Part shown: positions 11,421-19,931 of the stretch, in pieces
Position numbering within the stretch: the first letter of the stretch is position 1
How the letters are laid out: every line of letters begins with the position of its first letter
Assembly: GCF_000002865.3 (NCBI RefSeq)
Contig: NW_001865063.1
Span: 312,557 to 376,556, forward strand
Reading direction: 5' to 3'
From: Monosiga brevicollis MX1
Lineage: Eukaryota > Opisthokonta > Choanoflagellata > Craspedida > Salpingoecidae
Length of the DNA stretch: 64,000 bases
Position numbers and translations under genes: made by a program
Notes under the pieces: model-generated
Told to the model about the DNA's origin: nothing
The model's input: only the letters and a program-made list of their open reading frames with translations
Database searches by the model: none

Positions 11421-11536
11421 CCGTGCTTTGTTGGGTCATGAGTAGAAGACCTTGTGCTTGATTTGTTTTTTATTTTTTCGTGTGTTGGGTGTCTCGAATG
11501 GTCTTTATAAGTGAATGTAATCGATGGAATGGTTAG

Positions 11537-11645
11537 GCAAGCGCGAGGCCGCCCGGTCGCCTCGGTTTACCCCCTCTCATCCAGTCGAATTGCGATGGTG
11601 ACATGAGGTGGTCACCCTCCTTGGATACCTCCGCTTTCCTTTTTG
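11537..11645 (+). repeat. 105-bp direct repeat, copy 1
   Basis: Begins with gcaagcgcgaggccgcccgg and runs through a ccctctcatccagtcgaatt core. It is nearly identical to the segment at 12135–12240, in the same orientation, about 600 bp away. The two differ at only a few positions. Nothing coding is recognised in it. Confidence 0.9.
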
Positions 11646-11968: not shown

Positions 11969-12134
11969 TCGCGCGCGCACACAGAAACGAAGACACACAC
12001 AGGCAGCAAAAAGTTTCTCTTTCGAGTATCGTTGTTTTCGCTTTGGGCCAAAGTTGGACCTTGTGCTTGAGAATTTTTTTTTTCTTTGTGGTATTGGGGG
12101 TTTATATGCTCGAGCATTCCAAGGCCCTTGTGGG

Positions 12135-12240
12135 AAGCGCGAGGCCGCCCGGTCGCCTCGGTTAACCCCCTCTCATCCAGTCGAATTGCGATGGTGACAT
12201 GAGGTGGCCACCCCCCTTGGATACCTCCGCTTCCTTTTTG
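12135..12240 (+). repeat. 105-bp direct repeat, copy 2
   Basis: Second copy of the segment at 11537–11645, same strand. The copies and the 490 bp between them make a small unit with direct terminal repeats. No clear target-site duplication is seen outside them. Confidence 0.9.
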
Positions 12241-12498: not shown

Positions 12499-12850
12499 TG
12501 AACAAGTCGCGATCAAGAGACGGACGTGGAAAGTTCGGAACCAATCGACATATCAACCAGTTCATCGCACAGCCCATCCACAATACGCGACTACCAAAAA
12601 CTCGATCAGCCGAATTAGGATGCAAGCAGATTCCCAAATGTGTGTCAGGGCAAAAAAAAAGAGAGAACAAGTCGCGATCAAGAGACGGACATGGAGAGTT
12701 CGCATCCAAAGTGATAACCATGTACCCGCGGATCAGCTGATAGCCAAGAGCTCTAAATAGACATATAAACCCCATCCACAATGTGCGACGCGACGTTGAT
12801 TCGCAAAAACTCGATCAGCCGAGTTAGGATGCAAGCAGATTCCCAAATGT
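12499..12850 (+). repeat. Tandemly duplicated block next to the PARP fusion gene
   Basis: Two sequence blocks occur twice in the order A–B–A'–B'. Block A (cgcgatcaagagacggac) is at about 12506 and 12672. Block B (ccatccacaat ... ctcgatcagccga ... gattcccaaatgtg) is at about 12569–12641 and 12771–12850. Block B read on the minus strand is the same sequence that ends the PARP-like exon copy at 12753–13010, so this array seems to have grown from that duplicated exon. Confidence 0.8.
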
Positions 12851-13010
12851 GGGCATTGTCGTTGATGACCGCCTGGTGAACTTCGCCACGCGGTGCCGCG
12901 ATGACCGAATCATATCTGCACGCGATAGTTCGGTCAGGTCGAAAGCCAGCCAGAGAGACTCGCGGCTCAGAGCCAACATACAACATGCCAGAGCCGAGTC
13001 TGTCCAACAC
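12753..13010 (-). pseudogene. Partial duplicate of the final PARP exon of the neighbouring fusion gene
   Basis: On the minus strand an AG acceptor is followed by YDSVIAAPRGEVHQAVINDN, which aligns with YNSVVATPPGQFHEVIMFEN, the last exon of the gene at 13590–17100. Intron sequence just upstream also resembles the parent's last intron (both have a GGACA–CATGTTGT pattern). The Glu of the HEV triad region is replaced (VHQAV versus FHEVI), and I see no kinase or upstream PARP exons here. It therefore looks like a broken tandem copy rather than a working gene. It could still be spliced as an alternative 3' exon of the parent gene. Confidence 0.6.
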
Positions 13011-13589: not shown

Positions 13590-14420
13590 CTAATTGGCCG
13601 TGTAGTATACAACCAGCTCGGGATAGATTTGGGCATTCTCAAACATAATCACCTCATGAAACTGCCCAGGCGGTGTCGCGACAACTGAGTTATACCTGCA
13701 GAAGTTTAACGGTAAACGCAAGAGTCAGATCAGGAGGCGGGCAAAGACAACATGCAACAGGTGCACGATTTTGTCCGACGCACCGCTCGTTGTTGGGTGC
13801 ATCGGGCTGGAGCGGTGGCGCCAGCGCCCCAGAAGGAGGTGATGGATGAGCATGGGCATGGCCCAGGAGTGCTCGCGTGATGACGAGCATCCGTTCACCG
13901 TTGGGTCCGGCATCGGCGTACTGATGACTCTGGAATCGTTTAGCACATATCCGTGAGCGCTTAGATAAACAGGCGAAATTAAAAGTCAGCGCGGCCATAC
14001 CTTGCCGGGATGGTCGGCCAAGTAAACACCTAAACCAAATCGGTGGCCAGCGCTGCTGCCAGCAAAGCGATGGTCAAGGCCCAGGCGCACTATCTTGTCG
14101 CGCAACACTGTGCTGGGGGCAATACCGTGGAGCAACAGGCGCTCTTGACAGGATGCATCGCGAAGCAGAGCTGGAGATCCCGAGGGCGCATCTAATGTGG
14201 ACGTTTTGAGTTGATCATAGTGCTTCTGACTTTTGATGTGATGCAACATCTCCCGTCGCTTGGCGCTGTAGCGCTCCCACAGCACGGGGTTGTGCACGCG
14301 CTCTACCCGTTGCACTGCAATATTTGCTGGTCCCCGCCCATCGGTGTTCAGCTGCTTCAGTAGCTCACTCACCTAGCCACCCAGTAGATTCTAATTAGAC
14401 GATTCTTGGAAGAGCAAAGG

Positions 14421-14460
<40 letters not shown>

Positions 14461-17100
14461 CAATCACAAGCGACGCACCTCTGATATGAGCTCGGGAGCG
14501 TCGCGCAAGACATCAATGGCTGGCCCAAGTTGGGCGATGGCAAGCTGCTGCGAAATCTGCTTGGCGCTGAAAAGGCTTGGCCGTTGCTTTGGATCTGTTG
14601 CAAGCAAGGCTCGCGTTTCCTTGTACAAATCGCTCGTTGAATCGCACATCTGCATCAGAGACGCCAAAGTGAGTTCCAGTCACACGAGAGCCGCGGTTGG
14701 TTCTTCGTTGTGGGTCAATAGGTATCGCACTATCGCTCACCTCAGTCGCCAAGTGCGGAAAGTCGCAGTCAGACTCTCCTGCTCGTATGCTCCAGCTGCA
14801 TCGATCCACAACCTCATCAACCCGTGGGTGAGCAGGTGGCACCGTTTGTGGGAACATGTAGGTGTTGTAGAGAACGCAGCCAAAGGAAAAGGCATCCTGT
14901 GCCGGGCGCGCACCCACACGACCCATTCCAAATACCACTTCAGGTGCCACATAACCTGCCGTGCCCGACGATGCAGTGGCCGTGCATGGTAGCATGGTGG
15001 CTTCGGCGGCGGCCTTGGCAATGTCAAAGTCACCCAGCCGCACAACGGGCTGATCCTCCAAGCCGTCTAACATGACATTGCTCAGCTTGACATCTCGGTG
15101 CACCAGGCCCTTGCTGTGCATAAACGACAGGGCCGTGCGCAGCTGCGTCATGAGTCCTGCTATCACGGTTGAGGTGGCCAGGTGTCGTGCCGTGCTGAGC
15201 CACTGCTGCAAATCACCCTGTGCACACCATGGCTGTACCAAGTAGGCGCTTGGGTGGCCACTGTGCACGTCCACAAGCGCGCCAAGGACCGGAATGATGT
15301 GTGGATGCTCAAGCTGGCGCATGGCGCGGAGCTCACGCAGAAACGTACGGCACTGATTTGTTTTGTGCTGTTGAGCAAATGCATACTCCTTGACGGCCAA
15401 ATCTTGTTCCCCAGAATTTGATAGCGCGGCGCGGGCCTTGTACACCTTGTGATTTTGGTTGTAATGAAGATCAAGCTGGCCCAGGCTGGAAAGCGACAAT
15501 GCCCGGTCCACTTCGGTCATGGCCTCCAAGATGAGGCTGGCTGGAAGGTCGGGTCCAAGCACTGTGCGGAGCCGCGCTCCCAGCGCGCTCTGGTCAGGAT
15601 GCAAAAAGTGGTTGTCTGGATGTTCTTCTGCAGCTCGGCCACCTCCTCATGAATGGATCCAACTTGATCTGCGCTGCTCTGCGTGATGCCGCTTGCATAC
15701 TCTTCGCACGAAGTCAGCACGGACAGCGTCTTGGCCTGCCAGTCGATCATGTCTTGCAACTGCTGCAACAGGGCTTGCACCTCGTGAAGCGCAAACGCCA
15801 GATACCAGTCTTGATGCTCATAGTCATGCTCAACTCTCCATGTTATCAGCTGCTCCAGGCCGTTCTGCTCGGGCAAGCTCAGCTTTTCGTGGGCTTGGCA
15901 CAGCTCCTCCCAGGCCTCGGGCAATGCCTCGGTTGGAGGTGGTGCACTCACATCCAACCGTTGCGCACACTGCTCCAGTCTCTCCACTCGATGGTCCGTG
16001 TCGGTGGTTCCCGCTCTTGCCACAGCACGCAGAGCAGTAATCAGCTTCAGCACTAGCTGCTCGAGGTTGTTGTTGGCGTTGGTGAACAGTTCTATGCGCT
16101 TGGCTCCCACGTCGCGTAGCATGGCGACTTTGTCCAGGGCTGCACCGAGGTTGGCGGGCGGCGTTTCGGGTGCCATGGTCAGCGCGGTGGGTGGATCGGG
16201 GCACGCTGCCAGCACGGTCTGAAGCTCGAGGAGCACCGGCTGTAGCTCAAAACCAGCAGTGACACCGTGCAGCTCTTGCAGCACTGTTTCTAGGTTGTCA
16301 GTGTTGGGGTCCAATTGACCCAAGCGGTTGCTCAACGCTTCGGGCGCTGCCAGTGCCTGGTCGAGCGCGCCGAGGGCCTGGGTGGTGGTCGCCTGGAAGG
16401 CAGCCCAGTCCATGGCAGGAAGCTCTGGTGGGGCTTTGTCGATGGTCCTCTGGATGTCCGCAACCGCCGTTGCAAGATTGGGGTTTTGTTTGGCGGCACC
16501 GCTGATAAAGGCATCGAGGTGGGGGAGGGGATGGGTGGTGGTGCGCTCCGGCAAGAGGGGCCTGAGCCAAGTATCCACCGCCACAACAACAGAGGCCGTG
16601 GTCTAATGGAGGGTTGTGTGGTGCCATCGGTCGTGATTAGGTTGGATAAGGCCGTGGGGATTGGGGCAATAAATGCATTGGGAAAACAAGATTGAGNNNN
16701 NNNNNNNNNNNNNNNNNNNNNNNNNNNNNNNNNNNNNNNNNNNNNNTAACGGGGGGAGGGAGGTCCTGTACTGACGATGTCCTTGGCTTTAGCATCAGCA
16801 CCGTGCTTCAACAGCATCTCCACCACCTTGTCATGACCGTTACAGCAGGCCTTGCGTAGTGGTGTTTGACCACCCAATGATGCAAACATGCAGTATATGT
16901 CCCATGTTATACCATATCCGTAACATATTCAAAGTGTAATCAATATCACACAACATCATACCAAACAGCATACGTACCTCATATTTGTATTGGGCAGCAT
17001 CTCGGATACGTTGTTGGTCCCAACTGCTCACCAGCCGCAGCGCCTCTTGTGGATCTGATGACCGACACGCCCTCCACAGCTGCGCTCCATCATCACTCAT
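13590..17100 (-). CDS. Ankyrin – helical – protein kinase – PARP fusion protein, multi-exon
   Basis: Starts at ATG 17100 (MSDDGAQLWRACRSSDPQEA). The next exon has an ankyrin repeat (GGQTPLRKACCNGHDKVVEM, 16800–16885), followed by an N gap that may hide more repeats. A long helical segment follows (16600–15620). A kinase domain (15560–14560) shows AVKEY lysine, FLREL glutamate, VHRDVKLSN, DFD in place of DFG, GTAGYVAPE and DPKQRPS. After an intron with a 40-nt A run (14420–14459) a PARP catalytic domain follows (14370–13590). It has LLLHG His, GVYLAD Tyr and HEVIMFENAQI Glu, the H-Y-E triad of poly-ADP-ribosylating members. Kinase and PARP exons join in frame at 14480/14360. Near 15620 the frame shifts by one without an obvious intron, so a sequence error or unusual splice is possible. 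Stop: TAG 13590–13592. Confidence 0.75.
14420..14459 (+). repeat. Poly-A run of about 40 nt in an intron
   Basis: Pure A on the + strand, so T on the coding strand of the kinase–PARP gene. It sits in the intron between the last kinase exon and the first PARP exon and could act as an extended polypyrimidine tract. Confidence 0.9.
16697..16746. other. Assembly gap (50 N)
   Basis: Exactly 50 undetermined bases, inside the kinase–PARP fusion gene between the ankyrin exon and the helical exon. The true gap length is unknown. Confidence 1.
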
Positions 17101-18716
17101 GGTAACGGTATCTTCTATCCACCAACAATCTCATGAGCCCCCTCTCCAAGTACAACTCGTCCGTGAAAGTTGCAAGGACAGGTGTACTTGGTTGGTTGTC
17201 CAGCGCACGTTGTCGACTGCGAGGCGAGATCAGTGGTCTCACACCACTGAAAGCAAAAAAAACCGACAGCGATGCTTTCAACCAAAACGTTCTGGCGTCG
17301 CTGCAAGGCCCCGATCAGGAGAGCGTATCAAACACAAGTGATCAGTCACCACGCACACAAAGCAAGACACGTCAAGCAGCCCGCCGATGCCGATATCGAG
17401 ACCGAGAAAAAAAGGGCAACAAGAAAAAGAAGAAGAAGAAGTCAAGAGCAAATGGCAAAGGGAAGGCAAAAAGAAAATAACCAAGTACCCGCGGATCAGC
17501 TGATAGCCAAGAGCTCTAAATCAACATAAAACCCCACCTCGACACGTCAACCCCATCCACCTCATCCGCATACGTCCAGGGCCAACTGAGGAAGCACGAT
17601 CAGACAGACGTGCTTGGATGTGCAACGTAAAAATAGAAAAGCAGAAGGAGAACCAGAAGAAGAGAAGAGTAAAAAAAAAATACATGGGTGCGATCAAAGA
17701 GATGTCACATGCACAGATTTTCGGGCAATAAGCATGCAACGGCGGATCAGCCCTGATGGTAGGTATAAGTTTGCATATAAAGTACCGGTATCAAGAGCGG
17801 TTTTTGAAATGTCAGACGAACAAATTGCTTCCAAGGGTCTGATTTTGTATTAGCTTGAAGCACATTTTTTGGATGGAAATGATAGCTGCTTCGGGTCTGG
17901 ATTGACCGGGTGTACACGACAACAACTGTGAGTCAGAGAGGAAAGGCAAACACGTATGCTTGTCAGAGCGGGCACATGCGGCCATCTTCCATACAGAGAG
18001 GATGTTGGAATGTGGAGACACCTCAGAGCAAAATATAATGCAAATTAGAGATACATTTCTTCGTGATACTCATTTCAGAGAAAGTACCCGACACACCTCC
18101 TAATCCAGAGAGAGCATCCATCTCAACCTTAAGCCCAAGCGCAAACAAAAGCATTTTTTCGTTCTCCGATCAAACCAGACACCGACATCGTACGTCCCCT
18201 GTGGTCGTAAACGGCAGCCAGGGCCATTCTGCTGGTCACGGATTGAACTCCCGCTGGAAAGCATTTGGACATTGTGTGTCTGTTGGCCAGGATACAAATC
18301 ATCTTGACCGTGTGCAACACACACACACACTGGGAGGGGGATCGAGCGAGCCAATGAGACAACGAACGACTCGGCAGGTCACTGGCTCTACACCATCGGC
18401 GACCACATGTGCTGTGTGGCAGCCGATTTGCGATTGCTGATGAATTGCCTCCTTCACTTCTTCCGTGTTGCTCGCTCTCTGGATCGAGGCACCTGCCCAC
18501 ATACACATCCCCCCGCCACACACACACACCCCGTCTTGTTTGCCTCTTGGCCGTTTGGAATGTGGGCGTTCACAAGGATTTATATGATTTGGTTTTTTGG
18601 CAGTGCAAGCCAATTTTTTTTTTTTTTTTTCGATGGAGTCTTGATGGAAGACATGATTGGTTTTTCTTGGCTGCACTGCCACAACTCACCGCCATCCAAT
18701 TGGTTTGATGTGATAG
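17101..18716. other. Intergenic region between PARP fusion gene and TRAP-alpha
   Basis: No gene is recognised. It is the shared upstream region of two divergently transcribed genes. It is A-rich around 17400–17480 and 17630–17690, has a CA tract near 18318 and a T run at about 18616–18630. It contains one copy of a repeat also found at 12714 (listed separately). Confidence 0.5.
17484..17560 (+). repeat. Dispersed repeat shared with 12714–12778
   Basis: The segment gtacccgcggatcagctgat, continuing through agccaagagctctaaat and an ACATA(T)AAACCCC tail, is present here and at about 12720–12778 in the same orientation. The two copies bracket the kinase–PARP fusion gene: this one is upstream of its start, the other beyond its 3' end. 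Confidence 0.85.
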
Positions 18717-19931
18717 ATGAAGTTCTGCCGCAACGTGCTGCTGCTCGCCCTTCTGCTGGCGCCCTTGGCCCTGCTCAGCCATGGTATGTCGAATCGCGGG
18801 CCATTCTCTCTGCATTGGCCTCCCCGCACATGCTCTTGTCGATTTCAAGACGACCCCGACCCCCGCCCCCCCCCCCCCCAAAAAAAAAAAGAAAAATGAC
18901 TTTACTGACCTTGCGCACCGCCTCGCCTCTCGATGGAACCTTCTTGTGGTTGCAGCTCAGGATGTCGAGGAGGATGAGGACATTGAGGACACCATCGTCC
19001 TTGATGATCTTGAGGTTGAGGAAGAGGAGATCTCCCTCACCAACCTTGTGACCACAACCACCATTTTCCCCTCCCATGTCGATAAAGGTGCGTGCTGACC
19101 AATGCGACTAGGCCCCTGGCCTAGACCCCGAGTCTTGGCTCCACAACGCCCATTGTCTCCCGCACCTGCACAGTGCACCCACAAGTCCAATCTCCCCCCA
19201 GCCATTCCCAGCACTCGAGTTGGCCACGACGCTCATTGTTTGATGTTGTGCCAACCACGCCCCCTTTTTTAAACAAAAAAAAATTTAGTCTTTCCTGCCG
19301 GTTCCATCGTGTCTGCCGTCGTCGGTGTTCGCAACGCCGCCAGCGAGCCCATCATTGTCAACGCCATGGCTGCCTCGATCCGTCCCCTCGAGGACATGAC
19401 CCAGTCCTTCCAGAACGTGAGTTGGGACTGAACGTCACTGTGGAGGCGATACTGCTTCACACCGCCATCGCAATCGCAATCGCCTGCAAACACCTCAGTC
19501 TCACAGATACACACCTTGTCTTTGAATAGCTCTCTCTGATCTTCTTGGCCGACCGCATTGAGCCGGGAGAGGAGGCTAGCTTCAACTACAAGTTCCGCCC
19601 TTCGGAGCGCTTCGAGCCCGCCACCTTTGCTCTTGTCCTTGATGTTGGCTTTACTGATGCCCAGGACCGCCAGTTTGTCGTCCAGGCCCACAACACCTCA
19701 GTCACCATTACCGAGGCTGAGGACGATGGTGACCTGACCGGTCTCCTTCCATTTGTTAGCATGGCGGCCCTGGCTGCCTTTGCCTACGTCTACCTCCAGA
19801 AGCCTGAACTCCTGCAGACCGCTGCGGCCCCTGCTGCCAAGCCCGAGAAGATTGAGCGTGGTACTCGCGCCTCGGCCTCGGGCAACGAGTGGCTCAACAG
19901 CGCCAACCTGCCCCAGTCTGCCCGCAAGTAA
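18717..19931 (+). CDS. SSR1: Translocon-associated protein subunit alpha (TRAP-alpha / SSR1)
   Basis: Subunit of the TRAP complex that sits beside the Sec61 channel in the ER membrane and helps insertion of some secretory proteins. Four exons: 18717–18783, 18956–19087, 19290–19416 and 19530–19931, with phases that join cleanly. Exon 1 is a signal peptide (MKFCRNVLLLALLLAPLALL). Exon 2 is an acidic stretch rich in Asp/Glu, as in animal TRAP-alpha. Exons 3 and 4 give the lumenal beta domain (VSAVVGVRNAASEPIIVNAM; FNYKFRPSERFEPATFALVL) and then one membrane span (LLPFVSMAALAAFAYVYL) with a short basic cytosolic tail. Length, domain order and motifs fit the family. Intron 1 has a C/A homopolymer, intron 2 an A run. 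Confidence 0.9.

Follow-up and report, generated by a model that had tools for sequence, protein, structure and literature searches.

An ankyrin–kinase–PARP multigene family of Monosiga brevicollis and a probably damaged member of it

Ankyrin repeats precede a C-terminal PARP domain in the tankyrases (PARP5a/5b, Clade 4), and an ankyrin array is joined to a kinase in one protein in RIPK4, ILK and TNNI3K, none of which, to our knowledge, carries a PARP domain. Phosphorylation and ADP-ribosylation are usually written by separate proteins; a family with a variable binding arm in front of both writers would be well suited to studying how one mark affects the other. The gene described here, located on the minus strand at 13590–17100 of a 64,000-nucleotide stretch of Monosiga brevicollis MX1 (assembly GCF_000002865.3, contig NW_001865063.1, 312,557 to 376,556; the whole stretch is called the window, and positions are counted from its first letter), combines ankyrin, kinase and PARP exons, and it belongs to a cultured species whose branch neighbours that of the animals.

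The occurrence in M. brevicollis of proteins that have both ankyrin repeats and PARP was reported earlier (Perina et al. 2014, PMC4245714); judged by the accessible portion of that paper, in which no kinase and no family size is named, those proteins are probably the genes described here or some of them. In other partly accessible sources, M. brevicollis proteins were put in Clade 1 (Citarelli et al. 2010, PMC2964712) and M. brevicollis and S. rosetta were both reported to lack tankyrases (PMC9688111); PARP is not mentioned in the accessible parts of PMC6040629, PMC8592570 and PMC12424679, and the accessible main text of PMC8592570 names no ankyrin or PARP gene. No literature description of a kinase–PARP fusion family was found; the M. 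brevicollis kinome and genome papers lay outside the search, and an earlier mention there is possible. The genes carry known domains in an architecture for which no description was found, though public gene models or further papers may show it.

The window gene and its paralogues

The window contains one member, probably a damaged one, of a large M. brevicollis multigene family; the finding is larger than first noted, a family and not one odd gene. An intact member is predicted to be one soluble protein of approximately 1,000–1,300 residues. Its architecture, which leaves little room for doubt, starts with an N-terminal ankyrin array of variable length, followed by a linker that is conserved and looks helical, a kinase of Ser/Thr type and, at the C-terminus, PARP. 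The parts of the window gene are as follows.

16978–17100 (−): first exon; ATG at 17100, N-terminal ankyrin-like cap (MSDDGAQLWRACRSSD...), donor GT after 123 nt
16776–16874 (−): ankyrin repeat exon, 33 aa / 99 nt, PF00023; TG instead of acceptor AG
16697–16746 (no strand): assembly gap, 50 N
15604–16602 (−): linker, ca. 333 aa, no named domain; acceptor AG present, 47–80% identity to 16 paralogues
15600–15612 (ca. 15607, −): approximate site of a deletion of ca. 172 nt relative to the paralogues, located by paralogue comparison
14741–15646 (−): kinase exon 1, PF00069; open reading from 15646 on, with 15520 as the first in-frame Met; donor GT
14479–14649 (−): kinase exon 2; AG/GT, phase 0
14001–14372 (−): PARP exon 1, PF00644; H (LLLHG) and Y (GVYLAD) positions
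13784–13929 (−): PARP exon 2; AG/GT
13590–13695 (−): PARP exon 3, E position (QFHEVI) and stop codon; placed by splice sites and motif alignment

The window protein was compared with Pfam after its exons had been joined by hand; kinase – PF00069, E = 4e-37, 128.5 bits (gathering score 31.7); PARP – PF00644, E = 5.1e-12, 46.2 bits (gathering score 26.7); ankyrin – PF00023, E = 5.7e-8. The first-pass annotation, made from the letters of the window, had read the kinase motifs AVKEY, HRDVKLSN and APE and the PARP residues H, Y and E in minus-strand exons, where they are indeed present; the in-phase junction between kinase and PARP that it described was borne out as well, the introns being of GT-AG type and the five kinase and PARP exons encoding 551 aa and a stop in one uninterrupted frame. 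The ankyrin exon lies upstream, as it had said, and from this assembly is not readable into the kinase frame. The start exon is shared with paralogues (38–82% identity), and the 50-N gap should, judged from these, contain the remaining ankyrin array and the spacer exon. A gene boundary within the gap is unlikely: ankyrin exons are located upstream in 17/17 linker-bearing paralogues, and in 16/17 array and linker are separated by a small spacer exon.

A Sec1-family exon of the same assembly (L040) contains a 45-aa piece that agrees at 45/45 residues with 2xhe_A (UNC18), a chain of the M. brevicollis munc18–syntaxin structure. The M. brevicollis assembly (39.5 Mb, 57 contigs) was searched with the window kinase (at least 131 matches) and with the window PARP part (at least 164 matches); PF00644 was matched at 28 places at least. 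For the counting of kinase–PARP pairs, 63 of the kinase matches and 54 of the PARP rows were entered; second-exon pieces, most weak kinase rows, the small fragments C9:9336, C9:104532 and C17:198053 and the first half of C40:820101 were omitted. Family kinases (identity of at least 42%) accounted for 46 of the 63 entries, and 45 of these 46 are followed on their own strand by a PARP exon at a distance of 167–509 nt, the single exception being the fragment C9:58464; a downstream PARP exon was observed at none of the 17 weaker kinases entered (27–35% identity). The adjacency of kinase and PARP is not accidental, since 45 of 46 related loci repeat the same order; this order, together with the open spliced kinase–PARP frames given below, ruled out a chance juxtaposition of two genes. 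An internal stop was found in three family kinase matches (C17:205481, C31:555243 and C47:8400), and nine PARP pieces without an entered kinase, several of which adjoin full copies on C9, are read as relics.

Sequences of 21 paralogues and one short stretch were fetched for comparison. The GT-AG-joined kinase–PARP reading is open in 18 of the 20 paralogues tested as well as in the window; in L033 a junction is broken and a stop occurs, L029 fails at a single acceptor only (an AG sits three bases upstream), and L035, the exons of which were not detectable, was left unscored. Full ATG-to-stop models were prepared for 11 of the 21 paralogues by means of a script that picked phase-keeping splice sites; one ankyrin exon each was left out in L011, L023 and L024 (no in-frame placement), and the spacer end of L034 is doubtful. 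Ten of the 11 models are open (1,024–1,295 aa) and that of L033 contains one stop. The L028 model (1,139-aa frame) gave three Ank stretches, Pkinase (1.9e-36) and PARP (3e-10, 40.4 bits), all above the Pfam cut-offs. No strong transmembrane stretch was found in the 11 models (highest 19-residue Kyte–Doolittle mean 1.82), from which the proteins are taken to be soluble and intracellular.

Family copies are located within 50 kb of a contig end in at least 17 of 46 cases vs ca. 6.6 expected (P = 1.3e-4, assuming independent copies), on C7, C9, C12, C14, C28, C47, C48, C51, C55, C56 and other contigs. This excess reflects either subtelomeric clustering or an assembly effect; TTAGGG × 4 occurs only once in the assembly (C29), so that a subtelomeric position could not be mapped. 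L023 and L024 (C48: 576 kb and 652 kb), 75 kb apart, are 98–99% identical over 2,060 and 1,636 nt, the result of a very recent duplication, of gene conversion or of an assembly duplicate.

Catalytic residues, ankyrin repeats and selection

Kinase residues are kept as follows: Lys 22/22, Asp of HRD 21/22, first Asp of DFD 20/22, Glu of APE 22/22. The window and 19 other rows read DFD at the DFG position; GFE stands there in L019, AFD in L029 and DFN in L041. The PARP triad is kept to a similar degree: H 20/21, Y 20/21, E 21/22. Two diverged members depart from this picture in opposite directions: in L035 (C50:1178414) the kinase motifs are kept and the PARP triad reads M, W, H; in L019 (C37:17341) the kinase motifs are lost (HGH for HRD, no DFD) and PARP H, Y and E are kept. 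These complementary losses suggest that either output may suffice in some members. The third diverged member, L041, retains the kinase K and HRD and the PARP H and Y (its last PARP exon lies outside the fetched stretch). An H-Y-E triad accompanies polymer formation and H-Y-I single transfer; the E of the family aligns with the I of human PARP12, and with the triad H-Y-E the formation of poly-ADP-ribose by the family PARP is possible.

Ankyrin-type exon matches in the fetched loci numbered 102; 81 of them are exactly 99 nt long and of phase 0, i.e., one 33-aa repeat per exon, 90 preserve phase 0 and have a length that is a multiple of three, nine lie out of frame, and splice sites are absent from three, that of the window included. 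From 1 to 13 such exons stand between start exon and linker (some loci are end-clipped or contain N). The repeat framework, xGxTPLHxACxxGHxKVVEMLLKHGADAxAKxx, is conserved; the entropy at positions 1, 3, 8, 11 and 12 is 3.1–3.8 bits, far above the framework variability, and some of these positions are among those randomised in designed ankyrin binders. At the end of C51, L014 (oriented 151–2415) has 13 ankyrin-type exons regularly spaced at ca. 217 nt, several with single-base frame shifts, which on its sequence pattern looks to be a recent tandem exon duplication with decay. Pfam scans of the linker in 17 members produced no convincing match.

Ratios of nonsynonymous to synonymous substitution (dN/dS), median of pairs: kinase exon 1 – 0.135 (22 copies, 174 pairs), kinase exon 2 – 0.232; PARP exons – 0.170, 0.213 and 0.167; linker – 0.274. 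The low values in kinase and PARP exons indicate that both catalytic parts are kept by purifying selection. Distances in the kinase and in PARP exon 1 are correlated (r = 0.95 for 21 copies, 0.80 without the three most diverged; neither value was reached in 5,000 permutations), as expected if both duplicate as one unit.

Proposed function and alternative explanations

The ankyrin array would bind a ligand or a target protein, different in each paralogue, the linker would relay the binding to the enzymes, and kinase and PARP would in turn add phosphate and ADP-ribose to the bound protein, to their own molecule or to both. That the expansion is large, recent and modular and has left relics suggests that the targets to be recognised are many or change; the size of the repertoire and the exchangeable repeat exons are best accounted for by such recognition, e.g., of intracellular microbes or their products. 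The described architecture combined with a recognition repertoire in which both enzymes are in use is given a probability of about 0.6; the repertoire with both enzymes in use, taken alone, is held with a good deal less confidence than the architecture. A narrower version, in which ca. 45 cytosolic paralogues with exchangeable single-repeat exons, varied binding arms, a kinase and a poly-ADP-ribose-capable PARP would write two marks on their catch in the manner of immune receptors, is speculative and regarded as quite improbable. If the repertoire interpretation is true, it concerns an unrecognised recognition system in a species used for the study of the origin of animal immunity (PMC8592570, accessible in part).

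A number of observations weigh against a repertoire of doubly active proteins. At the preset designed-binder positions of the ankyrin repeat dN/dS is 1.2–1.9 vs 0.5–1.2 for the rest (identity cut-offs 65–85%), with an exon-level interval of 1.11–2.10 that ignores kinship within genes; the gene-level bootstrap intervals, however, include 1 (0.96–3.04, 0.87–2.90, 0.41–2.47), the score is matched by 265 of 2,000 random six-position sets, and at an identity of 90% or more the values are 1.04 for the surface and 1.07 for the rest (13 pairs). Diversifying selection on the ankyrin surface is suggestive and not established. Distances in the kinase and in the 34-aa PARP exon 3 give r = 0.23 without the three diverged copies (357 of 5,000 permutations). 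The GxGxxG glycine-rich loop was not seen in the kinase and DFG reads DFD, which makes kinase activity, as predicted from its motifs, plausible and not assured. Some copies are broken (the window and L033; frame-shifted ankyrin exons in L011, L014, L015 and L023), and the helical character of the linker was judged by eye.

A rival explanation is a fused house-keeping scaffold enzyme, the arrays of which would bind similar partners and the copy number of which would come from duplication in unstable parts of the genome and not from selection for diversity. The excess of copies near contig ends, the two nearly identical C48 copies, the commonness of relics (the nine kinase-less PARP pieces) and the inconclusive array selection test agree with such an enzyme; the excess may, however, only reflect repeats breaking assemblies, the array length varies widely, from 1 to 13 ankyrin-type exons, and repeat positions 1, 3, 8, 11 and 12 are far more variable than the framework. 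The scaffold enzyme is considered unlikely. It is somewhat less doubtful, yet still on the unlikely side, that only one of the enzymes is important, its partner being a passenger or a pseudo-enzyme with a regulatory role: L019 and L035 have each lost one activity by motif, and the kinase reads DFD instead of DFG and lacks a glycine-rich loop, whereas the remaining copies keep both residue sets, both exons are under similar purifying selection, and in the diverged L041 the kinase K and HRD and the PARP H and Y are retained. That kinase and PARP are adjacent genes of the same strand and not one gene is hardly credible, as no stop, start or intergenic space is present in 19 of the 21 sequences tested and the GT-AG introns are phase-matched. 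The single polypeptide proposed in the first-pass annotation is thus the preferred interpretation for the family (10/11 full models, 18/20 open kinase–PARP frames) and is not supported, as a whole fusion, for the window copy, which has the deletion and the lost acceptor. As that annotation also suggested, such a polypeptide might write both marks, or one domain might gate the other.

The window locus itself is likely not a functional gene: either it became a pseudogene recently, or near-identical paralogues were misassembled and this copy was corrupted in the process. Linker and kinase share one open exon in 16/16 fetched paralogues with a full linker match, with start points 387–428 codons apart, whereas the distance in the window is 333.67 codons because ca. 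172 nt of paralogue sequence are missing at ca. 15607; this shifts the frame between linker and kinase, and the linker frame (15604–16602) is out of frame with the kinase frame (open only from 15646). Furthermore, the acceptor AG of the paralogues is TG at the ankyrin exon 16776–16874, the 50-N gap is present and a relic copy adjoins the gene. Against a non-functional locus, the kinase–PARP part is open across 551 codons; the pairwise dN/dS of the window copy resembles that of the other copies, so that any loss would be recent or the fault would lie in the assembly; and a start at Met 15520, within the open kinase frame, makes a shorter kinase–PARP protein without ankyrins conceivable.

The flanks of the window gene contain the following features.

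17101–17540 (−): 5' flank common to other copies, candidate promoter region, defined by nt identity to paralogue flanks
17477–17535 (−): 59-nt direct repeat upstream of the gene, 92% identity to its downstream partner at 12714–12772
12800–12920 (−): degenerate PARP exon 3, relic of a second copy, 70–86% nt identity to paralogue PARP exon 3 over 28–78 nt

The 5' flank is 84% identical to that of L030 over 281 nt and 80% identical to those of L034 and L013. The PARP exon 3 relic and the flanking 59-nt repeat are probably the remains of an older tandem neighbour copy. Further downstream, two 108-nt direct repeats (11536–11643 and 12132–12239, 94% identical) were found 596 nt apart. The divergent neighbour of the ankyrin–kinase–PARP gene, at 18717–19931 (+), is a TRAP_alpha gene (translocon-associated protein alpha subunit; PF03896, 9.2e-7, exons joined by eye).

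Comparison with described systems

The solved structure closest to the PARP part is human PARP12 (1.6e-9), and PARP12, PARP15 and PARP14 ranked ahead of tankyrase 2 (these are similarity ranks only). The Clade 3 mono-ADP-ribosyltransferases PARP12, PARP14 and PARP15 thus provide the best catalytic-domain matches; human PARP12 differs in having I where the Monosiga family has E, and none of the WWE, macro and zinc-finger domains was found in the L028 model. With the tankyrases the family shares the position of ankyrin repeats N-terminal to a C-terminal PARP and the E of H-Y-E; it differs from them in the kinase and the long linker that stand between, and in fewer repeats. A SAM domain was matched neither in L028 nor among the best 25 of 41 weakly matching families listed for 17 linkers. 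Membership in the tankyrases was rejected, given the kinase and the lack of a detected SAM domain; the likeness to tankyrases drawn in the first-pass annotation holds for the combination of ankyrin with PARP and is otherwise loose, the PARP being nearest to PARP12/15/14.

That the PARP derives from a virus, a plasmid or a prokaryote was considered and rejected, no relative having been found in viral contigs, plasmids or prokaryote contigs (the viral and prokaryote searches reach close relatives only). Matches in an anti-phage library (mad6, 4.3e-41; PD-T4-6; others) are confined to the kinase or continue from it, as are the NCBIfam matches, all of which are below cut-off; they were read as generic kinase similarity, and identity with an anti-phage system was rejected. 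From NLR-type receptors the family is set apart by its domains, since no NB-ARC, NACHT, LRR, TIR or death domain was found in the L028 model; it resembles these and other expanded receptor repertoires in the large number of paralogues, in repeat arrays that differ in length, in conserved output domains and in relic copies.

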